Shown here: positions 14,945 through 33,647 of the stretch, piece by piece | Position numbering within the stretch: the stretch's first letter is position 1 | Layout of the letters: each line of letters opens with the position of its first letter | Source: Sulfurimonas paralvinellae | Lineage (GTDB): Bacteria > Campylobacterota > Campylobacteria > Campylobacterales > Sulfurimonadaceae | DNA: 49,811 bases | NCBI RefSeq assembly: GCF_014905135.1 | Contig: NZ_CP041407.1 | Location: 1 to 49,811, forward strand | Reading direction: 5' to 3' | Program-made: the position numbers and the translations under genes | Notes under the pieces: generated by a model | Database searches by the model: none | What the model saw: only the letters and a program-made list of their open reading frames with translations | Told to the model about the DNA's origin: nothing

Positions 14945-15286
14945 TTATTCCATTTCTAAACTCATGAGGAACATATCTTCCCCATCAATTACATTTACAT
15001 CAGTTGAGCCGCATTCTTGGCAACAATAGTGAATTTTTTCAAGTTCATTTTCTTTTTTACATTGGTTACACACTATTTTCAAAGCTTGTATATTCATAAT
15101 AAACTCTGCTCCATCACACACAGTCTTCTCTTTAAAAGTATTAAAAGCAATCTCCAAAAGATGTGCTTCAATACCGCTCATAACACCAATTTTGACAACT
15201 ATCTTTGTGACTTTCTGAGCATCATTTTTTTCCGCTACATCTTCTATCTGTTCAAGTAAAGCTTGAACAACACTGTACTCATGCAT
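14945..15286 (-). CDS. hypA: Hydrogenase nickel-insertion protein HypA
   Basis: 113 aa, normal length. MHEYSVVQALLEQIE carries the N-terminal Met-His-Glu nickel site. The zinc domain has two CxxC pairs, CNQCKK (about 71-76) and CQECGS. HypA hands nickel to the hydrogenase large-subunit precursor together with HypB. The start overlaps the end of hypX by 8 nt. The gene lies at the end of the hypB-C-D-E-X-A run. Confidence 0.93.
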   Translation of the reverse strand: MHEYSVVQALLEQIEDVAEKNDAQKVTKIVVKIGVMSGIEAHLLEIAFNTFKEKTVCDGAEFIMNIQALKIVCNQCKKENELEKIHYCCQECGSTDVNVIDGEDMFLMSLEME

Positions 15287-16940
15287 CTTCTCTTCCTTTT
15301 TTAGCTGCTATTTTCAATCTTTTAGGTGTCACCAATGGACAGACTTTATATACAAACTCATATCGCAATTTGTGAAAATTACTCTCTTTGTCCCAAAACT
15401 CAGAATGCATAACAGCTATCTCATTTTCTCTAGCCTGTTCAATCAATTGTTTATTTTCTTCTAAATAGTCCTCTTTTTCCCAAAGAAAATCACCACATTG
15501 ATCTTCATTCGAAACTATCTTTTTACAAAATCTTTGTAAATTATCCATATAATCTGCATGAGAAAAGACTTTATCAACCATACCAATACGTTCAGCCTCT
15601 TTTGCTCCAATAGGCAAACAAGCATCTAAAAGTTCCTGTGCTTTTTCTTCTCTCACCCGTTTAGGCAATGTATATGTGTGATATTCACTACCACTGAGTC
15701 CCAATGTTTTATAATGAGGGTTAAGAATTACTATCTCATCAGCGATGACATAATCACATGCTAAAGCCAAAAAGACTCCTCCTGCTCCAGCATTTTTATG
15801 GAGTGAGGCGACAGTAACAACATCATCTGCAAAAAGTATACTTTTTACAAGATCATTCATTGCATTGATATTGCTCCATCCATCCTCACCATTTTTCTTG
15901 CTGTCTTCAAGGAGATTGAGATGAATTCCATTACTGAAAAAATCTTGCCCACCCATAAGTACGACAACTTTTGCTTCTGTTTTTATATATTCAAAAGCAT
16001 ATTTCAATTTCATACATTTATCACTGCTAAAAGCACCGTTATGAAAATTGAAATGTAAATACGCGATTTCATCTTTAATGTTACAGCTTATTTCATAAAA
16101 AGTTTTATAACTTTTATCAAATATAAGAGGCAGTCTCTCCTCTTTAACGCCTTTAAGTCTATCTTTAAGAACATAAGTTGCCGGAAGTTTAAACTTTGTC
16201 TCTTCTTTAAGATGTGTTATCCAAATGGCACCGTCTATTGTACTCAGACATATAGCACCATCTCTCTTTGCTACTATTTCTTTGGGGAAATTCCCTCGTA
16301 AACGCTCTTCTTTCCAAGCTCCGTATAATCTAACTTTGAGTCCAAGTATTTCATCTTCTATACCAGGAAAACTATCATAGGTATATACTTTTTTCACTAT
16401 CTCTTCAGTTGTGTCATTATCCCAATCTATCTGATAATTTGGATCTTTGTTTAAAGCTAAAGAAACATCTTGTTGTTCTTTTTTATTGGCGATTACATTT
16501 TCAAAAAACAAATCTAAAACTGATGCATAACTGCTGAGGACTTCATTACGATATAAACTGGCTTTATAGGTATTTCGAACTTCAAAATTTTTCTGTACAT
16601 AAATATCTCCACCGTCAAAAAGGGCATTGGCTTTTAAAATAACAACTCCCCATTCTTTTTTTCCAAGAGCATTTTCCAGACTGTAAGCACCTCTGTCACC
16701 AAGTGGACCCGGATGAAAAATATAAGTCGGATAATTTTCATAAATTGATTTTGGAATATAATCTCTTAGATAGGGAGAAAGTATAATCTCAGGAGAAAAA
16801 CTTTCAATCTCTTCATCACGAGAAGCAGAATTTGCATACACAACATCAACAATATCCCCTCTTTCACACAAGTAAGTATATACTAACTGAGAGAGCGAAT
16901 TAAATGTTGAAACAAGCAATGTGATTTTCATATACGACAA
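15279..16940 (-). CDS. hypX: HypX (HoxX), CO-ligand-forming maturation enzyme
   Basis: 553 aa with two domains. The N-terminal formyltransferase-like domain has FHPGPLGDRGAYSLENALG near residues 73-92 and a hydrolase-like C-terminal part. An enoyl-CoA hydratase/crotonase domain follows, with VLMGGQDFFSNGIHLNLLE and NAGAGGVFLALACDYVIA. HypX turns the formyl group of formyl-tetrahydrofolate into CO for the Fe(CN)2CO centre and matters mainly when O2 is present. It is missing from strictly anaerobic hyp sets, so its presence points to oxic or microoxic H2 use. It overlaps hypA by 8 nt. Confidence 0.9.
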   Translation of the reverse strand: MSYMKITLLVSTFNSLSQLVYTYLCERGDIVDVVYANSASRDEEIESFSPEIILSPYLRDYIPKSIYENYPTYIFHPGPLGDRGAYSLENALGKKEWGVVILKANALFDGGDIYVQKNFEVRNTYKASLYRNEVLSSYASVLDLFFENVIANKKEQQDVSLALNKDPNYQIDWDNDTTEEIVKKVYTYDSFPGIEDEILGLKVRLYGAWKEERLRGNFPKEIVAKRDGAICLSTIDGAIWITHLKEETKFKLPATYVLKDRLKGVKEERLPLIFDKSYKTFYEISCNIKDEIAYLHFNFHNGAFSSDKCMKLKYAFEYIKTEAKVVVLMGGQDFFSNGIHLNLLEDSKKNGEDGWSNINAMNDLVKSILFADDVVTVASLHKNAGAGGVFLALACDYVIADEIVILNPHYKTLGLSGSEYHTYTLPKRVREEKAQELLDACLPIGAKEAERIGMVDKVFSHADYMDNLQRFCKKIVSNEDQCGDFLWEKEDYLEENKQLIEQARENEIAVMHSEFWDKESNFHKLRYEFVYKVCPLVTPKRLKIAAKKGREDA

Positions 16941-20193: not shown

Positions 20194-20838
20194 TTATGCT
20201 AATAGCATATCTGTTCCAACAGCAATAGAGATCAACCCAGCTGTTGCAAACACTCTTCTTACATTAGTTTTGCTGGTTAAAAATTCTTTATTAATATATA
20301 AGATAATACCACCAAAACTAATAAATACAACACTAACACCTGCAACAAAAGCAAGAACCATAGTCAGATCTACAGTTTTACCATGAAGCATGCCTAGTGT
20401 AACGAGCATACCCCGTACTCCTCCCATGCCCATTAAAGCACCCATAGTCCATGCAGATGTTGAAGCTATCTTTGTATCATCATGAACATGCTCTTTTCCA
20501 AAATAAATGTGAATATGTTCTTTGCCCTCATGTTTATGTTTATTAAGATGTATCTTATCCTCATACACCATATAAAGTAAATACACACCCATACCAATTA
20601 TAACCGTAGAAGAGATTACATCTCCGTAATCTGTTACATTTTGAGGTAAATGATATATTTCTAAAATTTTTGCAAAAATAAATAGTGTCATCCCATGACC
20701 AAAAGCGAACGCAAGTGTTATAAACATAGTTTTCTTCATTGACTTTCCAATTGAAAAATCGGTAATTGCAGTTAAATGATCTGGGCCGAATGCATGCAAT
20801 ATTCCATACCAAAAAATTATAAGATAGCCTAATTCCAT
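20194..20838 (-). CDS. NicO/NiCoT-type nickel permease
   Basis: 214 aa with about six membrane helices. The nickel signature HAFGPDHLTAITD is at residues 15-27, and a His-rich cytoplasmic loop (KHKHEGKEHIHIYFGKEHVHDD) follows near residues 100-125. Transporters with this motif import Ni2+ at high affinity. It is the first gene of the hyp operon. The start has SD AAGGA, and the palindromic operator TGAATGTTTATTCA lies 19 bp upstream. This would supply Ni for the hydrogenase encoded on the same replicon. Confidence 0.85.
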   Translation of the reverse strand: MELGYLIIFWYGILHAFGPDHLTAITDFSIGKSMKKTMFITLAFAFGHGMTLFIFAKILEIYHLPQNVTDYGDVISSTVIIGMGVYLLYMVYEDKIHLNKHKHEGKEHIHIYFGKEHVHDDTKIASTSAWTMGALMGMGGVRGMLVTLGMLHGKTVDLTMVLAFVAGVSVVFISFGGIILYINKEFLTSKTNVRRVFATAGLISIAVGTDMLLA

Positions 20839-20857: not shown

Positions 20858-20871
20858 TGAATGTTTATTCA
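20858..20871. promoter_or_regulatory. Palindromic operator upstream of the hyp operon
   Basis: TGAATGTTTATTCA, a 5-4-5 inverted repeat. Its reverse complement matches the site at 30782-30795 upstream of hydA at 13 of 14 positions. It is 19 bp before the start codon of the nickel permease, downstream of a -10-like TATAAAAT on the minus strand. Candidate binding site of the TetR-family protein encoded at 33051-33647. Confidence 0.55.
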
Positions 20872-20956
20872 GTTTTAAAAGATTTTATACTACATTATGT
20901 AAAAGAAAGATAAAATAATTTAATTCTTATATGTTTTTTGGACTAAAAGGGAAAAG

Positions 20957-21640
20957 ATGCAGTGGCTAACAGAGTGCCTTTTTTGCGGCAATTATGTATA
21001 TAGACTCAAAGACAACAGAATTAAATGCTCTTCTTGCCATAAAAAAATTTCTTTACAAAAACTCAACAAAATTATTTTTTTAATTGAAGCTTTTATAGAA
21101 AATGAAAATGCTTTACATATTGCCAAACGAATGCATATGGCATACAGTTCAGTACATACATACTTTGAGGAGTTTCGTTTGCTGTGCGCGAAAATAGCAG
21201 AAGAAGAGTATGAACTCTATCGTGAAAAAAACTGTGAATATGAAGAGTATTTTTATCTTGAAAAGTCTAAAAAAAATAATCCAAAAGCCATCTTTGATGC
21301 ACATAATTTTCTTACTTTTGATTATGATGGACATATATATACGCTGCTAATGCCTTCTCTACAGCCATATAAGCAACAATTTTTACAAGATAATTTACAA
21401 AATCCCTATTTAGCCGAGTTTAATAAATTTAAACGAATTAGTAGAATTGCTAAAGTCTCAAAACGCTATAATCAAATAGTAAAATTTTGGGAATATTTTG
21501 AACAAGAGATTCTTAAATACAAGGGGGTCAAAAGTGAAGTATTTATCTACTTTTTAAAAGAGTTTGAATTTAAGTTTAATCATGAAAATTCTGAAGCAAT
21601 AAAAATTTTAATGGAAAAATATGTTAAGGAAAAATTATGA
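20957..21640 (+). CDS. Zinc-ribbon/HTH protein related to transposase N-termini
   Basis: 227 aa. The first 35 residues form a zinc ribbon, CLFCGNYVYRLKDN...CSSCHKK, followed by FIENENALHIAKRMHMAYSSVHTYFEEF, a helix-turn-helix region. This order resembles the DNA-binding end of IS1595/ISXO2-type transposases. The remaining ~150 residues show no visible DDE catalytic core. It overlaps the HydD-like protease gene by 4 nt, is transcribed away from the hyp operon, and so is conserved in a hydrogenase context here. Probably a transposase-derived regulator or chaperone; the function is unknown. Confidence 0.55.
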   Translation: MQWLTECLFCGNYVYRLKDNRIKCSSCHKKISLQKLNKIIFLIEAFIENENALHIAKRMHMAYSSVHTYFEEFRLLCAKIAEEEYELYREKNCEYEEYFYLEKSKKNNPKAIFDAHNFLTFDYDGHIYTLLMPSLQPYKQQFLQDNLQNPYLAEFNKFKRISRIAKVSKRYNQIVKFWEYFEQEILKYKGVKSEVFIYFLKEFEFKFNHENSEAIKILMEKYVKEKL

Positions 21641-22173
21641 AGAAAACTGCAGTACTAGGAGTAGGCAATATACTTGAACTGGATGATGGTATTGCTGTAT
21701 ATGCAACAAAGTATCTTGAAAACAATTATAGTTTTAAACCATCCATAGATATAATTAATGGTGGTGTTGAAGGAATTAATCTCTTAAATCTTTTTATGGA
21801 GTATGAACATATTCTTATTCTTGATGCTATTGAAATAGATGATAAACCCGGTTCCATATATCATATTCCTGCTCATGAATTAACGGGATACGGATTAAAT
21901 TCCGGTGGTGCACATGAGATTGGAGTATTGCAATGTTTTGATATTTTGGAGCTTATGGGTAAGGATATTCCACAATCAAGCGTAGTTGGAATTATTCCTG
22001 AAAAAATTGATGTATTTATTGGACTAAGTCAAACAATGAAAAAAAATTTTCATACCTATATTAATACTGTACTCAATATTTTAAAAAAAGAGAATATTAT
22101 ATATAAGAAAAATCAACAGACTATTAGTATAGAAAATATTATTGATATGTTTAAAAACCCTTCATCTAAATAG
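21637..22173 (+). CDS. hydD: HydD-type hydrogenase maturation endopeptidase
   Basis: 178 aa. VLGVGNILELDDGIAVYA, DIINGGVEGINLL, LILDAIEIDD and SGGAHEIGVLQCFDILELMG follow the HybD/HydD fold. The nickel-sensing residues are an acidic residue in LDDG (Asp where HybD has Glu16), Asp in LDAIE and His in GAHEIG. Such proteases remove the C-terminal tail of the large subunit after nickel insertion; the HydB precursor here has a ~20-residue tail. It overlaps the zinc-ribbon gene by 4 nt and ends 17 bp from the convergent paralogue. Confidence 0.85.
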   Translation: MKKTAVLGVGNILELDDGIAVYATKYLENNYSFKPSIDIINGGVEGINLLNLFMEYEHILILDAIEIDDKPGSIYHIPAHELTGYGLNSGGAHEIGVLQCFDILELMGKDIPQSSVVGIIPEKIDVFIGLSQTMKKNFHTYINTVLNILKKENIIYKKNQQTISIENIIDMFKNPSSK

Positions 22174-22189
22174 AGTATTTATAGCTTAA

Positions 22190-22747
22190 TTAAAACCCTC
22201 TAGAGTGTTCAATGCTTGGGTTTGCAAAAATCTCTAATATCTCTTCTAAGCTAACATAGTTGTCTTTTTTTTCAATCTTAATACCAAGGTTTTCGATTTT
22301 TTCTATTATTGTTTCAATGTAGACGCTCCATACAGCTCTTAATGATTGGGTTAAGCCAACTTCAACTGCAATAATATCTTCAGGAACAATACTAATTACA
22401 ATGGTTTCAGCCATCTGCTCTGTCAGAGAACATATTTGAAGCATTTCAGCTATTTCAACTTCGTTTGCTGTTTTTTTTATAAGATCACCATTTAAAAACT
22501 CTTCTGTTGTTTTTATGGTGATATCCCCTACTTCTTTAGTATCATCTGAAGCAGTATTAATAATTATCACTTCATCATATTCCTGTATCAAGGGCATAAG
22601 TTTAAAACCTAATGTCCCTCCATCAACAATATCTATTGCAGGAGAGAACTTATAATTTTCCTTAAGATACTTTGCGCCGTAGAGACCTATACCTTCATCT
22701 TTAAAAAAGGCATTACCTGAGCCAATAAGTGCAACTTTTTTTTCCAT
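22190..22747 (-). CDS. HydD-like paralogue with altered metal ligands
   Basis: 185 aa. It follows the same fold as the protease at 21637 (LIGSGNAFFKDEGIGLYG, DIVDGGTLGFKLMPL). Glu of KDEG is kept. The second ligand Asp is Asn (IIIINTAS against LILDAIE), and the His is Asn (ANEVEIAEM against AHEIGVLQ). Two of the three nickel-sensing residues are therefore changed. It is the last gene of the hydE-hypF line, 16 nt after hypF. It could be a pseudo-protease or chaperone that senses nickel-free precursor, or a protease with different metal use. Function is inferred. Confidence 0.7.
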   Translation of the reverse strand: MEKKVALIGSGNAFFKDEGIGLYGAKYLKENYKFSPAIDIVDGGTLGFKLMPLIQEYDEVIIINTASDDTKEVGDITIKTTEEFLNGDLIKKTANEVEIAEMLQICSLTEQMAETIVISIVPEDIIAVEVGLTQSLRAVWSVYIETIIEKIENLGIKIEKKDNYVSLEEILEIFANPSIEHSRGF

Positions 22748-22763: not shown

Positions 22764-25037
22764 TTATATATGCAATGCGTAATACGCTTGACCTAGCGAT
22801 ATTCCACCATCATTAATCGGAGTTTGATGCTGAATATAGTATCTCATACTATTTTTCTTCAACTGTTCAATACACTTTTGCAATAAAAGCTTATTTTGAA
22901 ATACTCCGCCACTTAACACCACTGGTAATTCTCTATACTCTAAACAGATATCAATTACTATTTTAGCGACTGCATTAATAAACTTAGCAGCTATTTTTTG
23001 TACATCATTTTCACTCATTATCTCTTCAAGCATTATTTTACAATCTATAATACCCTCATTCATTGTATAATGATATGAATCATGAGTCATAATTTTCTCG
23101 GCATAACTCTCAAGCACCAAACCACTTTGTCCTTCATAGAAAACTCCTTGGAGATTGTCGCATAAAGCATAAACTGCATCAAATAACCTTCCAATAGAAG
23201 TGCTTTTAGGGGAGTTAATTGCTCTTTCTCTCATTAAATAAAAAGTTTCTATTTCATTCTTTGTAAAAGATTTTACAAGACTATGATCCATTTGCAGAAT
23301 TTCTGTGATGCTAAAATACTCAAACAACAATGATAATGCTATTCTTCTAGGTTCTTTAATAGCCTTTTCACCTCCAAGAAGAGTAAATTCTTTTAAATGA
23401 ACAATGCGTTCATATTCAGTAGGTGTTGCTAACAAAACTTCACCTCCCCATAATGTGCCATCATCTCCATAACCGGTTCCATCAAAGCAAAATGCTAAAA
23501 CTCTTTCATTTAAATTATACTCTGCCATAACTGAGAGAGCATGAGCATAATGATGTTGCACTTGAATTAACTCAATATGAGTATATTTTTGTATATACTC
23601 TTTTGCCCATTTAGTTGTTTCATATTTTGGATGCTTATCACAGACTAAAATATCTGGTTCAAAATCATAAAACCTTTTAAAAGTTTCAACAGTCCGTAAA
23701 AAATAATCAAATGCCTCTAAGGAGTTCAAATCTCCAATATGTGGAGAAACAATTATATTATTATCAAACGCTAATGTAATTGTATTTTTTTGATTAGCTC
23801 CCAGAGCAAGTACTTTTTTCTTGCTCTTATTTTGCAAATAAAAACTTTTAGGAGTATATCCGCGTGAGAGTCTTAAAAATATAGGTTCTCCATAAACATC
23901 CATAACTACACTGTCATCACAAGCGTTAATGATCTCTCTATTATGCGTTAAAGAAGTTTGTGCAACTAAATGCAGTTTTTTAAACAGTTCTTTGTCGTCC
24001 CTGATAATTGGTTCATCACTTAGATTGGCACTTGTTGCTACAAGAGGTTTTTTAACCTCTTGTAAAAGTAACTCATGCAAAGGTGTATAAGGTAAAAAGA
24101 CACCTATCCTATCAATCTCAGGTGCTATAAATTTAGATAAATATCTACTCTTATTTTTTTGAACAACAACAATTGGACGCTCTTTTGCAACTATCAATTT
24201 TTCTTCTGTTTTAGATAATTTTGTTACTTTCTTTATACAACTTATACTTGGAAACATTACAGCTAAAGGCTTTTTTTGTCGATGCTTATGCAATCTCAAT
24301 GCTAGTACGGCAGCATCATTTGTCGCATCACAAATAAGATGAAAGCCTCCCATACCTTTTACTGCAATTGTCTTTCCATCATTTATATATTGCACGGCAA
24401 TTTTTACAAGACCTTGGTCATTTTCAAAATCATCTTCCATTAAATTTATGATTTTTAAATTTGGACCACAATCAAAACAGCCTATTGGTTGAGCATGATA
24501 TCGTCTATTAGTCGGATCATTATACTCTTCTGTACAAGCCTCACACATATTAAAATGCTCCATCGAGGTGTTATGTCTGTCATAAGGAAGATTATCTATT
24601 ATTGTATATCTAGGACCACAATTCGTACAGTTTATAAAAGGATATTTATATCTTCTGTTGTGGACATCATTCATCTCTGCTCTACACTCGTCACAAAGTG
24701 AAATATCAGGAGAGACCATTGTTTGCAATGTTGTAGTTTCAGAATGAATGATAGAAAACATTTCATCATTTACAAGATCTATATCCTGTTGTTCTATATA
24801 ATCAATACGAGCTAATGAGGGGCTATTTAATTTTAAATCATTGATAAATTGCGATAATTTTGCATTCTTTCCTTCTACTTCAATAACAACGCCCCTACCA
24901 TCATTAAATACGAAACCTTTTAATGAATACTTTATTGCCAACTGATAGACAAAAGGTCGAAATCCAACGCCTTGAACTATTCCAAAAATATGAAGCTTTA
25001 CTCTTTTTTTAGATGTAGACTCCACCGACAACGGCAT
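22764..25037 (-). CDS. hypF: HypF carbamoyltransferase
   Basis: About 757 aa. Domains in order: acylphosphatase (GIVQGVGFRPFVYQLA), two zinc fingers with four CxxC pairs (CDECRAEM...CTNCGPRY...CEACTEEY...CFDCGPN), a YrdC-like domain (LHKHRQKKPLAVMFPS), and the carbamoyltransferase/Kae1-like part with QVQHHYAHALSVMAE, FDGTGYGDDGTLWGGE and GGVFQNKLLL. It supplies carbamoyl groups for cyanide ligands via HypE. The start is uncertain: ATG 25037 has the SD AAGGAG only 1 nt away, while TTG 25031 has ideal spacing; an in-frame TTG also lies at 25049. It overlaps hydE. Confidence 0.93.
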   Translation of the reverse strand: MPLSVESTSKKRVKLHIFGIVQGVGFRPFVYQLAIKYSLKGFVFNDGRGVVIEVEGKNAKLSQFINDLKLNSPSLARIDYIEQQDIDLVNDEMFSIIHSETTTLQTMVSPDISLCDECRAEMNDVHNRRYKYPFINCTNCGPRYTIIDNLPYDRHNTSMEHFNMCEACTEEYNDPTNRRYHAQPIGCFDCGPNLKIINLMEDDFENDQGLVKIAVQYINDGKTIAVKGMGGFHLICDATNDAAVLALRLHKHRQKKPLAVMFPSISCIKKVTKLSKTEEKLIVAKERPIVVVQKNKSRYLSKFIAPEIDRIGVFLPYTPLHELLLQEVKKPLVATSANLSDEPIIRDDKELFKKLHLVAQTSLTHNREIINACDDSVVMDVYGEPIFLRLSRGYTPKSFYLQNKSKKKVLALGANQKNTITLAFDNNIIVSPHIGDLNSLEAFDYFLRTVETFKRFYDFEPDILVCDKHPKYETTKWAKEYIQKYTHIELIQVQHHYAHALSVMAEYNLNERVLAFCFDGTGYGDDGTLWGGEVLLATPTEYERIVHLKEFTLLGGEKAIKEPRRIALSLLFEYFSITEILQMDHSLVKSFTKNEIETFYLMRERAINSPKSTSIGRLFDAVYALCDNLQGVFYEGQSGLVLESYAEKIMTHDSYHYTMNEGIIDCKIMLEEIMSENDVQKIAAKFINAVAKIVIDICLEYRELPVVLSGGVFQNKLLLQKCIEQLKKNSMRYYIQHQTPINDGGISLGQAYYALHI

Positions 25038-26934
25038 TCTCCTTACCAATTGGATAATTTTTACTCATATACGGAGGTGCTACTTTTAAATTTCTTTGCA
25101 TTCTTGAAAATAGTGACTGATTTGCAAAATGAGTACCGCATAATATTGTTTCTGTCGCTTTTGTTTTTGATTTCAATTCACCAATTATTTCAGAAAAGTA
25201 ATCCCCAAAACTTTCAAAAATCGAATACGCTAATATTGGAGTACTAACGTCTGCAAGCTGATAAGAGATAATACTTGAAATAAAGGCAACATGATCGAAA
25301 CGATTATCTTTTACATGTGTGTCAATTTGTATGCCTCCCTTACCAACAAACTTCATGGCCTCTTTGATAACTCCTCGCATTGATTGGTCGTCAAGTCCTA
25401 AAACAATTGCTACCGATTCAAAAAGTTTAACATCGTCTCTATCTTGCAATGCTTCAAGTTGTGCATAGATATCAGGTATTTTATTCTTGAGATTATTTAC
25501 AAGCCTGTCTGATCCTTCGCGAAGTTCTGCCATGTTTTGAAGAAGGTTTTCACTACTAAAGTGTTTTGGAGGAACAATTCTAAGCACATTCTTTCCATCA
25601 TAATATAAAAAAGACGGCTCTTCATCAAAATAGGCCCCAACACATTTTTTATTAAAAAGATTATGCTCAGCAATAACAGACATAAAAGATGCTTCATCTT
25701 CAGAGTAATATTTTTGATTATTATGATATTTTTCAGTAGTACCTTCCAAAACATTGGCACTCATAACTTCAACACTATTAAAATGCTCCATTCTATCAAA
25801 AAACATCATATCGCCTTGTGGTATACCGGCGAACTCATTAGCAATACTAACTACATTTTTTGCTATAAGATTATGTGAAGGAAAGGATACTCTTTCCCCT
25901 TCCGCAATAAATTGAATATCTTTGTTGATAAAGAAACGCATATCTTTTTGAGACTTTACATTCAAATCGTAATCCATAAGCATATCAGCATCACAGTTTT
26001 CATCAACATCTTCATAAGCTATAAAATCAACACCTAGTTTTTGTAGTTCTGCTCCGAGTAAAATAGTGAAACCATCATCAGGATACTTTACATAGCATGT
26101 ATTAGCATTACTTAATGTTTTGAGTTCTTCATTTTTCAGTGTTACATGTAGTATCGGCCTTTCAATGCTTAGCAGTGCTTGAAACTCTTCTGTTATCAAA
26201 GAGAGGTGATCTGTAATTTTAGATGCATTTATCATTATCAAAATAGAATCATTATTTAACTGTGTATGCTTATAAAATATACGATATCCAAAAGTTGTTT
26301 TCATAAGTAATTTTTTATCATCTAGTATTGCTTTTGCTGCCACTTCAAACATTGTTCTAAAACTACCGGGGTCATTTGCATATCGCTCTGTTGTTTTATT
26401 TACAAGACGAACAGGAACGCCACATGAATGGCATGAATTTAATGAATGAGACTCTCTTAAACCGACTTGATCCATTTCTGCTTCGCATTCGCTGCATGGA
26501 CGCAAAAATTTAAAAGATGTATTTTCTCTTGTATATGGATACTCAGTTAAAAAGCTGTAATTTCCGCCACAACAACTACATGAAATGAAAGGATAATAAT
26601 ATCTGCGTGAACTTACATCAAAAAGCTCTTTTTGACAACTCGGGCAAAGCCCTAAATTCAGTGGATATTTTAAGTCAAATTCCGGCAATTTTTCAACTTT
26701 TTCATCATTTTCACTATAGGAAGATGACTTTAAAAAAAGTGAAGCGGGTAACCTCTGTGCAAGTGAATCAAGACACGCTTGAAGTTTTTCATGTTCTGAG
26801 TCAAAAGCACATATTATTTTACCATTATCCATCGATATGTCGCAAGGAATATTAAATTCACGACAAAACGCTGTAATATAATTAGAAATATATTTTTGTT
26901 TTGTTGTAATGCGAAGTTCGAGTATGAAAGCCAT
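25009..26934 (-). CDS. hydE: HydE: HypF-like pseudoenzyme of the hyd operon
   Basis: 641 aa. Full-length alignment by eye to the neighbouring HypF is possible. Both zinc fingers are kept (CPSCQKEL...CSCCGGNY...CSECEAEM...CHSCG). EDEASFMSVIAEHN aligns with HypF HHYAHALSVMAEYN, so the metal-binding histidines are lost. CGTHFANQSLF aligns with SGGVFQNKLLL. The acylphosphatase-like N-terminus and the YrdC part are also degenerate. The gene position after hydC and its length suggest the epsilonproteobacterial HydE, whose exact role is not known. It probably binds HypE or precursor without carbamoyl transfer. Overlaps hypF. Confidence 0.65.
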   Translation of the reverse strand: MAFILELRITTKQKYISNYITAFCREFNIPCDISMDNGKIICAFDSEHEKLQACLDSLAQRLPASLFLKSSSYSENDEKVEKLPEFDLKYPLNLGLCPSCQKELFDVSSRRYYYPFISCSCCGGNYSFLTEYPYTRENTSFKFLRPCSECEAEMDQVGLRESHSLNSCHSCGVPVRLVNKTTERYANDPGSFRTMFEVAAKAILDDKKLLMKTTFGYRIFYKHTQLNNDSILIMINASKITDHLSLITEEFQALLSIERPILHVTLKNEELKTLSNANTCYVKYPDDGFTILLGAELQKLGVDFIAYEDVDENCDADMLMDYDLNVKSQKDMRFFINKDIQFIAEGERVSFPSHNLIAKNVVSIANEFAGIPQGDMMFFDRMEHFNSVEVMSANVLEGTTEKYHNNQKYYSEDEASFMSVIAEHNLFNKKCVGAYFDEEPSFLYYDGKNVLRIVPPKHFSSENLLQNMAELREGSDRLVNNLKNKIPDIYAQLEALQDRDDVKLFESVAIVLGLDDQSMRGVIKEAMKFVGKGGIQIDTHVKDNRFDHVAFISSIISYQLADVSTPILAYSIFESFGDYFSEIIGELKSKTKATETILCGTHFANQSLFSRMQRNLKVAPPYMSKNYPIGKENAVVGGVYI

Positions 26935-26983: not shown

Positions 26984-27022
26984 AACAAAAAAAGAGGTAA
27001 AGCCTAAGCTTTATCCTCTTTT
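26984..27022 (-). terminator. Rho-independent terminator at the end of hydC
   Basis: On the minus strand, a 14-bp stem with one bulge (plus-strand arms 26990-27003 and 27008-27022, loop CTAA) is followed by a run of seven T. It spans the hydC stop codon and lies 50 bp before hydE. It would lower expression of hydE-hypF-protease compared with hydABC. Confidence 0.65.
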
Positions 27023-27735
27023 ACAAATTTACTACCACCGACAACAATGGCAATATCACCTTCTTTCCAATAAATAGTACGCCATACCTGATAATATATA
27101 TGGAAAACTACCCATGCAATAATCCACCACATTGTGTAATGGTGTACAATTCTTACATCCATAATAGTTGCAGTTGGTCCTCCACCAGCTATCCAAGCTG
27201 ATACTGGTATTGTCCAATCAGTTACCAGATGCAGCATGGCAGGCCACCATGTACCGATTGAACTCTCACCAGATTCTAAACCATGTACATACAACTGTAA
27301 CCCGGTAAAGAGCATCCATGCTAAAAGCAGATGAAAAATTGAAAAATATACAGTATTAAAACTATCACTATGTGTAGAATCAAATTTCTTACGGCGATTG
27401 AGTGTAAGAAGATTTAAAAAAACCTCAATAAACTCTTTTATATTCTTAGCTGTCGGCAAAACCTTTTTATATGGCTTTTCAAAGCGTGAAAAGAAATAGA
27501 GGTATGCTACTATTATTGATGTCACATCAAATATAATCGCAACCATAAAGTGTCCCCATCGATTCCATGCCATAACATACTTATCGACTGCACCATCAGC
27601 CATAAATGTTTCATAATAAGGATGCCCAATATAAAGTCCTGTAATAACAGCGACTATCATTGATATGACATTTATCCAATGGATTATACGCATTGTACCT
27701 GTCATACGTTTAACTTGTCTGTGACCAGCTTTCAT
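27004..27735 (-). CDS. hydC: Hydrogenase cytochrome b subunit HydC
   Basis: 243 aa, four membrane helices at about residues 14-34, 61-82, 128-151 and 200-218. Conserved His residues in IIHWINVIS, GHFMVAIIF, FHLLLAW, VHHYTMWW and WVVFHIYY fit two b haems. It anchors HydAB on the periplasmic face of the inner membrane and passes electrons from H2 to the quinone pool. It lies 11 nt after hydB. The stop codon is inside a terminator hairpin. Confidence 0.92.
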   Translation of the reverse strand: MKAGHRQVKRMTGTMRIIHWINVISMIVAVITGLYIGHPYYETFMADGAVDKYVMAWNRWGHFMVAIIFDVTSIIVAYLYFFSRFEKPYKKVLPTAKNIKEFIEVFLNLLTLNRRKKFDSTHSDSFNTVYFSIFHLLLAWMLFTGLQLYVHGLESGESSIGTWWPAMLHLVTDWTIPVSAWIAGGGPTATIMDVRIVHHYTMWWIIAWVVFHIYYQVWRTIYWKEGDIAIVVGGSKFVKEDKA

Positions 27736-27746
27736 AATAGACTCCT

Positions 27747-29525
27747 TTAGATACTACATTGCGTATCTATCTTATAGACACCTAATTCTTTACCCTTAGT
27801 ATCTACTACATGCACAGCACAAGCGATACAAGGGTCAAAACTATGAATTGTACGAATAATTTCTAAAGGTTGTTCAGGTTCTGCGACTTTTGTACCTATC
27901 AATGAAGCTTCATATGCACCTAAACGCCCTTTATAATCACGAGGTGCTGCATTCCATGTTGAAGGAACAACCGCTTGATAATTAACAATTTTTCCATTCT
28001 CAATTTTCACCCAGTGACCTAATGCACCACGAGGTGCTTCTGCAAGTCCCATTCCCTTAGTTTTAACACTTACTTTGTCAAAATCAAATTCTGTCCAAGT
28101 GCTTAAATCTCCTGCAGCAACATTTGCTGCCAATTCATCTGCCCACTCAACCATTACATCAGCCATTAACTCAGTCTCTATAGCACGAGCTGCCGTACGA
28201 CCGACTGTACTAAAAAGAACACTTATAGGAAGATTTCCTCGTTTAAGGAAATTTGTTACATATTTAGTTATTCTTTCATCTTTACGTGCTACGCCGACAA
28301 CCATACGGGCTAAAGGTCCTACTTCAACACGCGTATCATTATATATAGGTGATTTAATCCAAGAGTATTTCTCATTTGTTTTTAAATACGCTATTCCATC
28401 TTCACGTTTATCTAAACCTGTATATTTTGGAATTGTTTGTCCATCATATGGGTGTAAAGGATTTTTCCCTTCATACCAAGAGTGTGTCACATCTTCTGCA
28501 ACCTTCTCAGGATCAACATCTTCAACTTTAGAAATATCTCCTCCATAAACTATACCACTTGGGAAAAGTAAAGCTGATTTATAAAATCCAGTGTCATCTA
28601 AACGGAAATCACCATAACTCATATAGTTAAGGAGACCACCACCTGTTCCACCTACACCTTTACCTTGCATAAGTTCTGTAAATGTAGCTTTGGAATCAGT
28701 CGCTTCATCCGCATACATGGTACCTGCCATATATACATCCGGTAAATAGGCTTTTTTAACAAATTCTGTTGATTCTTTAAGAAGATTTTTAAACAGAGCG
28801 ATACGCGCAGGATTTTGGATATCTTGAACACAAGTTACACCACCAACAACAATAGACTGTGGATGTGGATTCTTACCACCAAAAATTGCCTGCATTTTTG
28901 CCATATCACGCTGGATGTCAAGTGCTTTTAAATAATGAGCCACACCAATAAGGTTTTGTTCTGGTGTCAATTTATAGTGTTTATTCCCCCAATATCCATT
29001 TCCAAAGATTCCTAAGCGTCCTTGTTTGACAAATTTGGCTACTCTCTCTTTAATCTCTGCAAAATGTCCTTCACCTTCTATATAAGGTGTAGTTCCTGCT
29101 ACTTTTGCCCACTTTTGAGCTTCTTGTGCTGTTTTTGCAGGATCAGCAGAAAGTGCAGATACAACATCAACAAAATCAAGCGCATGAAGATGGTAAAAAT
29201 GTACCAAGTGGTCATGTACATATAAAGAACCTTGGATAAGGTTACGAACTATTCTTGCATTTTTAGGAATTGTAATGCCAAAAGCATCCTCTACACCCTC
29301 AATTGAACGCTGATAGTGGGTTCCTGTACAAACTCCACAAATACGCATAGCTAAAAGTCCTGCATCTCTTGGATCTCTTCCTTGAAGAATAGTTTCAATT
29401 CCTCTAAACATTGTAGAAGAACTATATGCATCGACAATTGTATTGTTCTCATCAATCATTGCTTCTATTCTTAAGTGACCTTCAATTCTTGTAATAGGAT
29501 CTACTACTATATGTTTCTTTGCCAT
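27747..29525 (-). CDS. hydB: [NiFe] uptake hydrogenase large subunit HydB
   Basis: 592 aa. The N-terminal site motif RICGVCTGTHYQ (about 61-72) and the C-terminal DPCIACAVH supply the four nickel cysteines. After the final His comes a ~20-residue tail (VVDTKGKELGVYKIDTQCSI) that an endopeptidase must remove. EAPRGALGHW, a conserved active-site region, is present. It is the catalytic subunit of the membrane-bound, quinone-linked group 1 hydrogenase. Its start overlaps the hydA stop by one base. It probably travels folded through Tat with HydA. Confidence 0.95.
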   Translation of the reverse strand: MAKKHIVVDPITRIEGHLRIEAMIDENNTIVDAYSSSTMFRGIETILQGRDPRDAGLLAMRICGVCTGTHYQRSIEGVEDAFGITIPKNARIVRNLIQGSLYVHDHLVHFYHLHALDFVDVVSALSADPAKTAQEAQKWAKVAGTTPYIEGEGHFAEIKERVAKFVKQGRLGIFGNGYWGNKHYKLTPEQNLIGVAHYLKALDIQRDMAKMQAIFGGKNPHPQSIVVGGVTCVQDIQNPARIALFKNLLKESTEFVKKAYLPDVYMAGTMYADEATDSKATFTELMQGKGVGGTGGGLLNYMSYGDFRLDDTGFYKSALLFPSGIVYGGDISKVEDVDPEKVAEDVTHSWYEGKNPLHPYDGQTIPKYTGLDKREDGIAYLKTNEKYSWIKSPIYNDTRVEVGPLARMVVGVARKDERITKYVTNFLKRGNLPISVLFSTVGRTAARAIETELMADVMVEWADELAANVAAGDLSTWTEFDFDKVSVKTKGMGLAEAPRGALGHWVKIENGKIVNYQAVVPSTWNAAPRDYKGRLGAYEASLIGTKVAEPEQPLEIIRTIHSFDPCIACAVHVVDTKGKELGVYKIDTQCSI

Positions 29526-30760
29526 TATGCTTCTCCTCCATCTTCTTTTTTACCTGCAAAGGCACTTGCTGCTGCATGAATACCAATTCCTATACCAGCT
29601 GCTGTTAACAGCCCTAGGCCAAATTCGTCAACAGTTTTCTCTACACCACCTGTAGGTGCTTTTATTTTTGCATCTGCCATTGGTCTTTCATAGGCATATT
29701 TATCCCAGAAATCTGGCTCAGAACATCCTATACAACCACGACCAACACCAATAGGCCAGTTTACACCTTCATTGTAACGAACGATTGAACAATTATTAAA
29801 TGTCATAGGTCCCTTACAGCCCATTTTATAAAGACAGAAGTTATTTTTTGCACCCTCATCACCCCACTCTTCTACATACTCACCAGCATCAAAGTGTGCA
29901 CGTCTTTCACAGTTATCATGAATTCTATAGCCAAATGCAAATTTAGGGCGCAATAGAGAATCAAGTTCAGGCACCTGACCAGTTAGAATATAATGGATAA
30001 TTACTCCAACCATGTTAGCAGGGTTTGCCGGGCATGCAGGAATATTAATAAGAGGTTTCCCTTTTATAACATCCATTACACCAACGGCACCAGTTGGATT
30101 AGGAGCTGCTGCTGGAACACCACCAAATGTAGCACAAGAGCCAACCGCAACAACAGCTGCTGAATGCTTCGCAACACGGACAAGGTGATCATGCATTGTT
30201 TCGCCACTTGCTCCAATTGTACCAAATTGACCATTCATGCCTAAAGGAACTGATCCTTCAACAAAAAGTAAATATTTGTCTTTGAAATGTTCAATTGCTT
30301 CTTCAAGTTGTTTCTCTGCCTGATGCCCCGAAGCAGCTTGTAATGTTTCATGAAATTCAAGTGAGATGATATCTAAAACAATTTCATCAATTTTTGGTCC
30401 ATCTGAACGTAGTAATGCTTCTGAATTTCCAGCACAATCTTGGAGTTCCAGCCAAATAACCGGAGCCCTGTTCATCATCAATGCCGCATCAGCCACTAGA
30501 GGAGTAAAAGAAGCCGGCAACATCAGCATACCTGTCACAGCACTAGCCCACTTTAAAAAGTCACGTCTTTCTATTCCTTGTGTTTCCAACACATCACCTA
30601 TGTCTAAACGGTTATTTATAGGTTGTTGTGTTTTTAGTTCTTCTATACGTGCCTGACAAGTTTGAAACAACTTGTCATAATAAGCATCACCTTTGTTCGT
30701 CTCAACACGTGCGCTTTTAGATGTAAAAAGCTTTTTCACGCCTTCAATTCTATCTGACAT
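29525..30760 (-). CDS. hydA: [NiFe] uptake hydrogenase small subunit HydA
   Basis: 411 aa from the ATG at 30760, which has SD AAGGAG; a GTG at 30796 lies over the operator and lacks an SD. A long N-region leads to the Tat motif ERRDFLKW (about 64-71) and a hydrophobic stretch. Cluster ligands are visible: GSCATFGG, PACPANP, HDNCERRAHFDAGEYVEEWG, MGCKGP and GCIGCSEPDF. The proximal-cluster motif reads CAGN (residues 109-112) where CxGC is usual. A C-terminal membrane helix (GLGLLTAAGIGIGIHAAASAF) anchors it. It transfers electrons from HydB to HydC. Confidence 0.94.
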   Translation of the reverse strand: MSDRIEGVKKLFTSKSARVETNKGDAYYDKLFQTCQARIEELKTQQPINNRLDIGDVLETQGIERRDFLKWASAVTGMLMLPASFTPLVADAALMMNRAPVIWLELQDCAGNSEALLRSDGPKIDEIVLDIISLEFHETLQAASGHQAEKQLEEAIEHFKDKYLLFVEGSVPLGMNGQFGTIGASGETMHDHLVRVAKHSAAVVAVGSCATFGGVPAAAPNPTGAVGVMDVIKGKPLINIPACPANPANMVGVIIHYILTGQVPELDSLLRPKFAFGYRIHDNCERRAHFDAGEYVEEWGDEGAKNNFCLYKMGCKGPMTFNNCSIVRYNEGVNWPIGVGRGCIGCSEPDFWDKYAYERPMADAKIKAPTGGVEKTVDEFGLGLLTAAGIGIGIHAAASAFAGKKEDGGEA

Positions 30761-30781
30761 TGCCAACTCCTTTTTTAATAA

Positions 30782-30795
30782 TGAATAATCATTCA
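30782..30795. promoter_or_regulatory. Palindromic operator upstream of hydA
   Basis: TGAATAATCATTCA, a 5-4-5 inverted repeat, 13 of 14 identical with the reverse complement of the site upstream of the hyp operon (20858-20871). It begins 21 bp before the hydA start and adjoins a -10-like TACTAT on the minus strand, so a bound repressor would cover the transcription start. Confidence 0.55.
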
Positions 30796-30891
30796 CTATA
30801 GTAGCGGCTAATAACTTAAAGTAATATTAGTTTTATTAATATAAATTGAAATATGAACTTTCTTATATTGATTTCGGACTAAACGTAATAT

Positions 30892-32190
30892 TTAATGCGT
30901 TGTACATACTGAGCAGACATCAAAAGTGCGGAAAATGAAAAGGGCATCTTTTTTAGCGAGACCTTGCATTGCTTGCTGTACAGGTGTAGGGGTTTGTGGT
31001 GTAGAACTTCCAATATTAAATTGTGTAGGCGTTGTAATATGGTATTGACTTATCATACCATTTTTTAATTCAATTTTATGAAGTAACGGACCACGTGGCG
31101 CCTCTACAACACCTATACCTGTTGCTGATATTTGTTTTATATCAGTAACAGTAACAACTGAGTCTTCATCTATATCAAAATTATCTAAAAGTATTTTTGA
31201 ATACTCCAACAAGTAACCAATCTCAAAAACTCTTGCCATCACTCTTGAGTATGCGCTGTCTTTATATCGTCTGTGCATATTCTTTATAAGGGGAACAGAC
31301 TGTGATAACATACGTCCAAGCGGTCCTGCTTCATAATATTCATTTTTATAGAGAGCATTTTTAGCATAAGTAATTTCCTGTGGAGAATACGCATCAGTAT
31401 CAGAAACATATTTGCTATTAATTCCAAAAGTTCTGGTCCCTTTTAATTTTGACGAATTCGTAAACCCATGCTCTCCAAGTACAATAAACTGATCTTTTGC
31501 AAAACCTTTTGTATGCATACCTGTTTCAATTAAACCTTTTTCCAAGTTTGTCAAATCAGAAGAAAAACCATTAAAATCTTTACAGGATTCAAGTGTAAGA
31601 AATTTATCTAAGCTTATACCTAAAGTTTCCTTTTCAAAAAACTTTATCAATTCTTCAAGTTGACTACGTGCCTGCATTATTTCTATAAATGTTGGATCAC
31701 TTGTCACACCACCTGGTATCATATAAGAGGAATGTGGCCATTGTCCACCGAACACTGCGATCGCTTTTGCAGATAAGGATGCAGCATAAGCCCCTTTGAG
31801 TGGTGTTTTTTCCAGTTTAATACTTATTAGCTTTACAAGTTCTGGAATAATGACCATGTATAACCACTTAAAGTGATTTTGAATCATCTCCATTATCAAA
31901 GTAAACTCACGTATTTTTTGTGCTTTTTGTGTTAATTTTATTTCAAACCCTGCATTTTTATAAGCATCTTCTATTGCTCGTACTGCCGCCATGAGGTGGG
32001 CATGTCCACATATTCCACATACACGAGGAGTAATTACAAGTGCATCAAGTGCATTTTTGCCTTTTAAAATAGATTCCATCCCTCTAAAATGAGGAAATGT
32101 TATCGTTGCAAAATCAACTTTATCGTCTTTAATATCAAAATATACAGAGGCTTCACCTTCAATATGTTCAAGGAGTTGTTTTGTAATCAA
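30892..32190 (-). CDS. hupV: Cytoplasmic group 2 (sensor-type) [NiFe] hydrogenase large subunit
   Basis: 432 aa, shorter than HydB. RVCGICGHAHLMAAVRAIEDA and the C-terminal DVCSVCTTH carry the nickel cysteines. The protein ends at that His, so there is no tail to remove; regulatory hydrogenases (HupUV/HoxBC) share this trait. Pro in the usual DPC motif is Val. EAPRGPLLH is kept. It overlaps its small subunit by 23 nt and follows the tetR gene in one operon. H2 sensing is the likely role. A group 2 uptake enzyme is the alternative, so the symbol is tentative. Confidence 0.82.
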   Translation of the reverse strand: MITKQLLEHIEGEASVYFDIKDDKVDFATITFPHFRGMESILKGKNALDALVITPRVCGICGHAHLMAAVRAIEDAYKNAGFEIKLTQKAQKIREFTLIMEMIQNHFKWLYMVIIPELVKLISIKLEKTPLKGAYAASLSAKAIAVFGGQWPHSSYMIPGGVTSDPTFIEIMQARSQLEELIKFFEKETLGISLDKFLTLESCKDFNGFSSDLTNLEKGLIETGMHTKGFAKDQFIVLGEHGFTNSSKLKGTRTFGINSKYVSDTDAYSPQEITYAKNALYKNEYYEAGPLGRMLSQSVPLIKNMHRRYKDSAYSRVMARVFEIGYLLEYSKILLDNFDIDEDSVVTVTDIKQISATGIGVVEAPRGPLLHKIELKNGMISQYHITTPTQFNIGSSTPQTPTPVQQAMQGLAKKDALFIFRTFDVCSVCTTH

Positions 32191-33073
32191 TAAGTTTTCC
32201 TTCTAATCGTTTAATATGAAATGTTTTAGCAATTCCCGCCATTGTCAAGTAATTGCGTTTAGGGACTCCAAGTGGGACATCTTCAGGGATAGACATATTT
32301 GTTTTTGTATTAAAAAAATTCTGCTTTGGAAAATCTGGTTCAGTACATCCAAAACAAGGCGTACCACTTCGAGTTTTTGAGCTCACTTCATTCCACAAAA
32401 TTTTATTACAAGATGCATGTGTCATAGGACCGCGACAACCTTGCTCGTAAAATAGACAACCCTCCTTAAGTCCAAATCCTTTAGCATCAACTTTCCATTC
32501 AAAATATTCATTTCTAGTACATCCATGGTGTGCCAAGTTACTGTAGAGTTCACGTGGGCGATGCATCTCATCGAGTAAAATTTTTTGATGGTTAATAATC
32601 ATATTAAGTGTATATCCTAGCCACTCTGGATGTATTGGACAGCCTGAAAGATTAATTATTTTTTGATCCACCTCTAACATAGGACCTGTTCGTTCAGATT
32701 CATTAAATAATAAGCCACTATTTCTCTGAGGTGCTGACGCTTTAAATATCCCCCCAAAACTTGCACAACTTCCCACTGCAATAACATACTCTGCATTTTT
32801 TGAATAATGTTCTAACATTGTTTGTATCAAGATATCATTGCGTTTGAGCTCTGGATCAAAGGCTCCTTCAAAAACTAAGATGTCACATGAAAGTTTACAC
32901 TCTGAAATTTCTTCAAACGTATATAGTGCTTCCATTGTTGGAAAGTAAAGAAGTTCAATCTTAGATAATAGAAGAGGAAGATACGGTAGATTTAAGAAAG
33001 AGTGTGTATTACCATTGCATGTAACACCTTGAAGCCATAATAACTTTTTTTTATTGTCTTTTTTTGAGTGCAT
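32168..33073 (-). CDS. hupU: Cytoplasmic group 2 (sensor-type) hydrogenase small subunit
   Basis: 301 aa with no Tat signal and no C-terminal anchor, so the enzyme stays in the cytoplasm. LLWLQGVTCNGNTHSFLN, AVGSCASFGG, LSGCPIHPEW, HHGCTRNEYFEW, YEQGCRGP and CFGCTEPDFP mark the Fe-S cluster sites. As in HydA, the fourth proximal ligand position is Asn (CNGN, residues 19-22). It overlaps tetR by 23 nt and the large subunit by 23 nt, so the three are translationally linked. Probable H2 sensor; the symbol is tentative. Confidence 0.82.
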   Translation of the reverse strand: MHSKKDNKKKLLWLQGVTCNGNTHSFLNLPYLPLLLSKIELLYFPTMEALYTFEEISECKLSCDILVFEGAFDPELKRNDILIQTMLEHYSKNAEYVIAVGSCASFGGIFKASAPQRNSGLLFNESERTGPMLEVDQKIINLSGCPIHPEWLGYTLNMIINHQKILLDEMHRPRELYSNLAHHGCTRNEYFEWKVDAKGFGLKEGCLFYEQGCRGPMTHASCNKILWNEVSSKTRSGTPCFGCTEPDFPKQNFFNTKTNMSIPEDVPLGVPKRNYLTMAGIAKTFHIKRLEGKLIDYKTTP

Positions 33074-33647
33074 TATATATATTTTGAGAAATAGATTCTT
33101 GATACCATTCTAATGGATGAGGAAGAATTTTCTCACCAAAAAGAAATGCCATACCACCAAGATATCCCATAAATAAACCAAAGGCAGAAAAGAAATCTTG
33201 ATCATGTAAATCTCCTTTAGCAACACCATCATTAAAAAACATCATCATTTCCGTAACAAATGGTGAAACACAGACCATTCCCTCACACCCTTCACCAAAT
33301 ACCTCTCTATTTGACAAGTAAACTCTCAGAAAATACTCAATCATCTCAGGTTTTTTTGTAGCCATCTCGAAATACATGACAACAATTTCATGTATTTTTT
33401 CTTCAGTAGAAATGTCTTTTTCATTAATTAACAAAATCTGATTTCCAAGATATTCTGAGATATATAAGACAAGTTCTTTAGCTAGAATATCTTTAGACTT
33501 AAAATAATTATAAAAATTACCAACACTCATACCTGCTTCTTCTGCAATATCTGGTATAGTTGTTACATAAAATCCTTTTTTTGAAAAAAGTTTTAATGCG
33601 ACATCAATAAGCCCAGTTTTTCGTTTTTCTTTAGAAATTCTTGCCAT
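33051..33647 (-). CDS. TetR-family transcriptional regulator, likely of the hydrogenase genes
   Basis: 198 aa. The N-terminal HTH is typical TetR: ALKLFSKKGFYVTTIPDIAEEAGMSVGNFYNYFKSKD (about residues 17-53). The C-terminal ~140 residues are helical and contain Cys in GEGCEGMVCVSP. It is the first gene of the operon with the group 2 hydrogenase and overlaps it by 23 nt. It is the only classical regulator in the island, so the shared palindrome at 20858 and 30782 is its most likely target. How H2 or redox state would reach it is unknown. Confidence 0.85.
   Translation of the reverse strand: MARISKEKRKTGLIDVALKLFSKKGFYVTTIPDIAEEAGMSVGNFYNYFKSKDILAKELVLYISEYLGNQILLINEKDISTEEKIHEIVVMYFEMATKKPEMIEYFLRVYLSNREVFGEGCEGMVCVSPFVTEMMMFFNDGVAKGDLHDQDFFSAFGLFMGYLGGMAFLFGEKILPHPLEWYQESISQNIYNALKKRQ

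Follow-up and report, generated by a model that had tools for sequence, protein, structure and literature searches.

The 49,811-nt window analyzed here is the entire contig C2 (NZ_CP041407.1) of the two-contig, 2.08-Mb genome of Sulfurimonas paralvinellae. On its minus strand it carries tetR, hupU, hupV, hydA, hydB, and hydC in this order, followed by two hypF-like genes and a maturation protease gene. The genes tetR, hupU, and hupV, encoding a TetR-type regulator and the two subunits of a cytoplasmic [NiFe] hydrogenase, sit directly upstream of the uptake hydrogenase genes hydABC. All Pfam matches exceed the family cut-offs, with TetR_N found in tetR, Oxidored_q6 and NiFe_hyd_SSU_C in hupU, and NiFeSe_Hases in hupV. 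The name HupUV is used by resemblance only, since HupV falls outside the HoxC clade of group 2b hydrogenases. An initial annotation, made from the sequence alone, had described short gene overlaps and no nearby kinase or response regulator. Both observations hold: 23 nt are shared by each of the neighboring pairs tetR/hupU and hupU/hupV in the open reading frames (ORFs) of the window, and no kinase or response regulator was seen in the ORF lists, which were read by eye, with Pfam run on 7 ORFs. The sole plasmid record with similar DNA, from Sulfurovum mangrovi, has the same tetR-hupU-hupV-hydABC order.

Linkage of tetR and hupUV across Campylobacterota

The linkage, whose conservation the initial annotation had proposed to check, is found class-wide. 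Among 397 Campylobacterota genomes, hupV (E value of 1e-40 or better) is present in 113 and the TetR (1e-30 or better) in 114, with 112 genomes carrying both. The sole hupV genome without tetR is G336, whose hupU sits at a contig end, and the only tetR genomes lacking hupV are G188 and G387. The hydA gene occurs in 365 of the 397 genomes, including all 113 with hupV.

Gene order was compared in 127 loci, comprising up to about 8 kb on each side of the hupV matches and 11 more genomes, with the window and S. mangrovi included. The tetR gene lies on the same strand directly upstream of hupU-hupV in 122 of these; the five others are four cut contigs (L070, L075, L084, and L169) and a different hydrogenase (L077). 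When a script picks the start codons, an overlap is seen for tetR/hupU in 92 of 122 loci and for hupU/hupV in 110 of 126. The cytoplasmic hydrogenase of H2-using Campylobacterota is thus nearly always encoded with one particular TetR, and given this position and the near-identical genome sets, a functional tie is hard to avoid.

For the protein alignments, three TetR and four HupU frames with an internal stop and the incomplete L131 were left out. TetR is 52 to 85% identical to the protein of the window and is more conserved than HupV in 121 of 122 loci. The cysteine residues to which the initial annotation drew attention, C121 and C126, are invariant (122/122). They lie at the start of the helix 122-143, following the least certain stretch of the AlphaFold model. 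The TetR_N DNA-binding domain and the all-helical TetR fold place the protein in the TetR/AcrR family. Its fold resembles Bacillus FadR-type regulators (template modeling score of 0.78 to 0.85), from which it differs by a sequence identity of only 15 to 21%, a score far under the FadR model cut-off (37 of 200 bits), the invariant C-x4-C pair, and the hydrogenase partner. Eight TetR paralogues (40 to 49% identity) that are unlinked to hupUV show a shifted C-x4-C (four), another spacing (one), or no pair (three).

Predicted TetR operators at the hydA and hyp promoters

A motif search on 105 distinct hydA upstream regions yields the palindrome TaAATGAATATTCATTtA with a log-likelihood ratio (LLR) of 755, compared with 64 to 71 for three shuffles. 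Over the gap between hupV and hydA, extracted widely enough to take in divergent hydA, the matrix score reaches 10 in 113 of 113 regions (1.8% of shuffles) and 15 in 103 (0.1% of shuffles). In the window, the palindrome before hydA is the only exact pattern match in the whole genome. Exact palindromes are found in 89 of 113 linked hydA regions, 2 of 122 tetR upstream regions, and 1 of 23 hydA regions from genomes without hupUV; this single control case is G188, which retains tetR with both cysteines. The 113 hupV-hydA regions include the window, L016, and also L070 and L077 (the hydA contigs of split assemblies); 14 of the 127 loci, having no same-strand hydA within 12 kb, are outside this set.

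Four sequence sets serve as independent tests: unlinked hydA, transporter, control, and Aquificota. None of 22 hydA promoters from genomes without this TetR has a site (scores of 7.3 or less); for 14 of them the TetR absence was checked directly (best match 2.6e-11), and the remaining 8 fall outside the 114 TetR genomes. Both genomes with tetR and no hupUV have the site, and in G387, where tetR is directly upstream of hydA, it scores 16.0. The site therefore tracks tetR and not hupUV. Among 17 hydA copies of hupUV genomes that are unlinked or additional, 10 have the site (14.9 to 22.5), 8 of them 31 to 56 nt before the hydA match.

The position of the site is informative as well. Across the 113 hydA regions, the 60 nt preceding the site hold 73 occurrences of TTTAAGT or TTAAGTT, 42 of these at a distance of 24 to 26 nt, and -10-like words are most frequent 8 to 10 nt upstream. 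With this spacing from the -35- and -10-like elements, the site should cover the transcription start, a geometry that points to a repressor rather than an activator. A generic promoter scan gave no excess (14 found versus 13.4 expected). The same palindrome type occurs just before several unrelated TetR genes (L302, L303, L308, L311, L316, and L317), which fits a TetR-type site, and we take the FadR operator to be a palindrome of this type too.

A second group of putative operators lies before a transporter-like gene, which heads the hyp operon in the window and is present in 16 of 25 hupUV genomes searched. In hupUV genomes, each of the 16 first copies is preceded at about 11 to 23 nt by TGAAT-N4-ATTCA, a sequence absent before 2 second copies and before the gene in 3 genomes without hupUV, G188 among them. 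An operator before tetR itself, for autoregulation or hupUV repression, was rejected as a general feature: in the motif search the tetR upstream regions do no better than shuffled sequence (LLR of 70.7), and none of 122 reaches 19.9, a cut-off passed by only 40 of 106 hydA upstream regions. L137 (at 10890), L114, and L108 differ from most loci in having a strong palindrome upstream of tetR, so that autoregulation may exist in this subgroup.

Several points qualify this assignment. The count of 113 of 113 is partly circular, since the matrix was built from linked hydA upstream regions, and the background for upstream scoring itself contained true sites. When one mismatch is allowed, the palindrome appears in 24 of 122 tetR upstream regions and 2 of 23 controls. 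Scores of 10 are reached by 16 of the 122 tetR upstream regions and of 15 by the three named above, exceeding the shuffle rate of the hydA regions, so some autoregulation is possible. L336, which has no tetR, scores 12.1 (no exact palindrome), and G188 has tetR and yet no site before the transporter gene. The seven site-less unlinked hydA genes score -0.1 to 9.8; these are extra copies, and another hydA in the same genome has the site.

Table 1. Features of the tetR-hupUV-hydABC region and the hyp operon in the window; pLDDT, predicted local distance difference test
Feature	Position	Strand	Basis
tetR, TetR/AcrR-type regulator, 198 aa	33051..33647	-	TetR_N 58.8 bits; AlphaFold model mean pLDDT 92.2
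Codons of TetR C121 to C126 (C-x4-C)	33270..33287	-	Codons verified
hupU, cytoplasmic [NiFe] hydrogenase small subunit, 301 aa	32168..33073	-	Pfam; nine conserved Cys
hupV, [NiFe] hydrogenase large subunit, 432 aa, TTG start, without C-terminal extension	30892..32190	-	Pfam
Promoter-like TTTAAGTTA (30812-30820) and TATAGT (30795-30800), just upstream of the operator	30795..30820	-	Sequence; spacing common in relatives
Predicted TetR operator, palindrome TGAATGATTATTCATTAT	30778..30795	-	Matrix 17.7, top score in window
hydA, small subunit of the group 1 uptake hydrogenase, start moved to ATG 30760	29525..30760	-	Pfam
hydB, uptake hydrogenase large subunit	27747..29525	-	PF00374 710.8 bits
hydC, cytochrome b subunit	27004..27735	-	Named by position and by its relative's annotation in S. 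mangrovi
Second, weaker predicted operator, TGAAT-N4-ATTCA on minus strand	20858..20875	+	Matrix 10.4
Transporter-like gene opening the hypB...hypA operon	20194..20838	-	Weak nickel/cobalt efflux model match, no Pfam family

The start of hydA is very probably the ATG, which stands behind GGAG, and not the GTG at 30796 (Table 1), and the predicted operator fills the stretch between these two codons. The neighboring maturation genes show further features. The second hypF-like gene (25009-26934), which adjoins a 761-aa hypF, has the HypF zinc finger and a weak carbamoyltransferase match, and relatives of it come after hydC or the protease gene in many loci. Two hydrogenase maturation protease genes stand end to end on opposite strands (21637-22173 and 22190-22747). 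Inside the hyp operon lies a HypX-like gene (15279-16940) with formyltransferase and enoyl-CoA hydratase domains; HypX is required for synthesis of the cofactor CO under oxic conditions (PMC12134894).

Relation to regulatory hydrogenases and TetR loci outside the class

The initial annotation had described HupUV as a sensor-type hydrogenase, a view that stands in part. Like the group 2b HoxBC/HupUV of Cupriavidus necator pHG1, it is a cytoplasmic two-subunit [NiFe] hydrogenase encoded next to uptake hydrogenase genes, and its large subunit has no maturation tail. HupV ends at the last metal-binding motif (CxxC and two or three residues) in 125 of 127 loci, the two exceptions being one cut contig and one different hydrogenase. 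Three 2b references likewise lack the tail, whereas 2a-type references have it together with a protease gene. The sensor assignment does not extend to phylogeny, as HupV is outside the HoxC clade. In a 31-row tree with midpoint root, HupV and the Hydrogenothermaceae sequence L292 form their own clade (support 100/100, stem 1.01) outside the 2b and 2a references, whose group names we assigned, in part from their neighbor genes; placement in group 2b is not supported.

HupV is 24% identical to HoxC and HupU 32% identical to HoxB of C. necator, where a kinase and a sigma-54 regulator take the place of the TetR gene. HupU has nine conserved cysteines, compared with 12 for HoxB, which holds three [4Fe-4S] clusters (PMC5665086), and most of the HoxB C-terminal extension is missing from it. 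Of 123 HupU sequences, 112 have Asn, 8 Cys, and 3 Asp at the second proximal-cluster position; in the window, both HupU (CNGN) and HydA (CAGN) carry Asn in place of the second cysteine expected for this cluster. A narrow gas channel with two bulky residues is, we assume, a group 2b feature; at the presumed channel positions, the first residue is Ile in 126 of 127 sequences and the second varies (Thr 57, Val 30, Phe 23). Since the 2b clade, a HoxJ/HoxA partner, and 12 conserved cysteines are all missing, we do not file the cluster in group 2b, though the arrangement works like a regulatory hydrogenase. Group 2d hydrogenases occur in Aquificota and Epsilonproteobacteria. The Sulfurimonas enzyme is labeled 2b in one paper (PMC7952632).

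A HoxJ/HoxA pair in the host genome, which the initial annotation had named as the case against a kinase-free route, was not found, and no such two-component partner is a regular neighbor of hupUV in the 127 loci. C. necator HoxJ matches only kinase domains in the host genome (residues 276-440, 52 bits at best), with no full-length HoxJ, and the best HoxA match is the AAA+ domain of a 383-aa frame, the others being receiver domains. Near hupUV, HoxJ-like ORFs occur in only 5 of 127 loci, matching from residue 162 on, and HoxA-like ORFs in only 2, with the receiver part only. Such a pair encoded elsewhere could still receive the signal from HupUV, following the C. necator model, with the TetR as an additional local regulator. 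The host genome does encode an NtrC-like AAA+ protein and histidine kinases, the 2b scheme is assumed for Epsilonproteobacteria in one paper (PMC4729907), and adjacent kinase-like and receiver-like ORFs lie on the opposite strand within 8 kb at one locus (L096). Given the restricted matches and the few ORFs near hupUV, and also the shortened HupU, as replacement of the HoxB extension blocks the double dimer in C. necator (PMC5665086), we consider this very improbable.

A scan of named genome contigs with the TetR alignment, of which 80 of at least 456 matches were kept, extends the comparison beyond the class. Among the matches listed, Campylobacterota (two of them labeled "bacterium") and Aquificota are at 50 to 58% identity; the next tier is at 26 to 40%, or 49 to 53% over the DNA-binding domain, and those of its members that reach the cysteine region (L296, L302, L307, and L309) have residues other than Cys at 121 and 126. 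The tetR-hupU-hupV order is present, among the same matches, in Persephonella (L281, hupV as two overlapping frames) and in a Hydrogenothermaceae metagenome-assembled genome (MAG) (L292).

Other loci have the TetR with different neighbors. In four Aquificaceae or Aquifex MAG loci (L286, L287, L288, and L293) the palindrome lies at or just before a group 1 hydrogenase gene. Between tetR and this gene there is nothing in L286; a diguanylate cyclase (GGDEF protein) with a cysteine-rich N-terminal part in L287 (1495-2370) and L288 (6625-7500), from two Aquificaceae MAGs; and a [2Fe-2S] ferredoxin in place of hupUV in the Aquifex MAG L293 (5971-6869), followed by the palindrome. In L291, the TetR gene adjoins hypB only. 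On a 6-kb Campylobacterales contig (L250, 2726-3931), 12 nt separate the TetR orthologue from the nitroreductase gene downstream of it, and neither a hydrogenase gene nor a strong palindrome is present; in G188, a flavoprotein gene on the other strand adjoins tetR. In G058 (L354, 6071-9633), a TetR paralogue (40%, shifted C-x4-C) and a hydrogenase operon of the Complex I-like (group 4) type are divergently arranged around a strong palindrome copy (17.3 at 6735), and a comparable switch may act on a different hydrogenase there. A Runella plasmid (L323, 139-1908), with a TetR beside a 2a-type hydrogenase, was not counted, the similarity being confined to the DNA-binding domain (38% over 50 residues); it is perhaps a separate TetR-hydrogenase pairing with an unrelated TetR.

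TetR as a possible output of hydrogen sensing

From the comparison of sequences, which shows the class-wide linkage, the invariant cysteines, and an operator presence that follows tetR, we propose that TetR is a dedicated repressor of the H2 oxidation genes in this lineage. It would bind the palindrome over the hydABC transcription start and, in many genomes, also just before the transporter-like gene. In the presence of H2, reduced HupUV would lift the repression, so that hydABC is induced without kinase or response regulator. The likeliest route would be redox, with electrons passing from the HupU clusters to the C121/C126 pair, the alternative being direct contact between HupUV and TetR. 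That TetR regulates hydABC is very likely, and HupUV is probably its H2 input, with H2 as the inferred signal. In line with this, Nautilia PV-1 apparently raises its Hyd-1 when more H2 is available, an effect confounded with pressure (PMC10092268). As a whole, TetR repressing the H2 oxidation genes with HupUV as its usual input is, in our judgment, the best explanation and a reasonably good one. Electron transfer to the cysteine pair is a more tentative part. The fuller scheme, in which HupUV oxidizes H2 and passes electrons straight to the C-x4-C of the TetR dimer, releasing the hydABC and hyp promoters, is somewhat more speculative still, as is the idea that such a HupUV-TetR pair is the main case of a TetR subfamily with redox input from a neighboring protein (HupUV, and elsewhere ferredoxin or nitroreductase).

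Several observations argue against this explanation. The TetR is kept without hupUV in G188, in G387, and in at least five Aquificaceae/Aquifex MAG loci, so it need not depend on HupUV, and two loci, L260 (a Campylobacterales contig) and L280 (Persephonella), have tetR-hupU with no hupV in the following 1.5 to 1.9 kb. In Sulfurospirillum multivorans, where the cluster is present, hydB is transcribed under nearly all conditions, and quantitative PCR gave a non-significant twofold rise of hydB with H2 and barely detectable hupL (PMC5357620). At least for that species, these data make the strongest case against H2 induction, and the authors suggest a missing H2 sensor (PMC5357620).

One way to read these observations is that HupUV is a catalytic cytoplasmic hydrogenase giving low-potential electrons, for example for CO2 fixation, while TetR answers a different signal and both merely belong to the H2-use gene set. 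This role was proposed from the similarity to the Aquifex aeolicus enzyme (PMC4584964, PMC5357620) and would agree with the TetR-hydABC loci without hupUV and the S. multivorans data. It leaves the shared occurrence and fixed position of tetR hard to explain without a functional tie; moreover, Sulfurimonas denitrificans transcribes the gene, yet its soluble fraction showed no H2 uptake activity (PMC4149538), and no electron-acceptor gene recurs beside hupUV in the gene-order table, in which not all unnamed ORFs are identified. We regard this role as unlikely. Slightly less so, though still doubtful, is that TetR itself senses a ligand or redox state, HupUV only tuning it through the local redox, with O2, sulfur species, or the redox state as the true signal. 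The TetR genes without hupUV and the other redox neighbors (ferredoxin, nitroreductase, and the flavoprotein) suit this idea, but in S. multivorans hydB did not drop at 5% O2 (PMC5357620), and only 2 of the 114 tetR genomes of the class lack hupV.

The arrangement itself is already in print: Kruse 2017 describes S. multivorans hupSL with an upstream TetR-like gene and proposes that the TetR represses hupSL (PMC5357620), whereas here it is hydA that the palindrome precedes, tetR having one in just a minority of loci. None of the papers found, as far as their available text extends, joins the TetR family to the hydABC hydrogenase, and a prior description may exist. The enzyme is called H2 sensing in passages that name no output (PMC2628731, PMC10092268), and the role of the cytoplasmic group II hydrogenase of Campylobacterota as sensor or catalyst is disputed (PMC4584964). 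Four Sulfurimonas species unable to use H2 have incomplete clusters, three without hupUV, and S. baltica uses H2 without hupU (PMC10470523).

Compared with the initial annotation, the output can now be named, likely through an operator at hydA and, in many genomes, at the transporter/hyp operon. The predicted output TetR, with predicted operators at two promoters and two invariant cysteines, makes the dispute about sensor or catalyst experimentally tractable. Our analysis points to H2 sensing without a histidine kinase. If this is true, H2 sensing in many vent and sulfidic-habitat bacteria would run without phosphorylation, and the system would provide a compact H2-responsive genetic switch, though one dependent on hydrogenase maturation genes.

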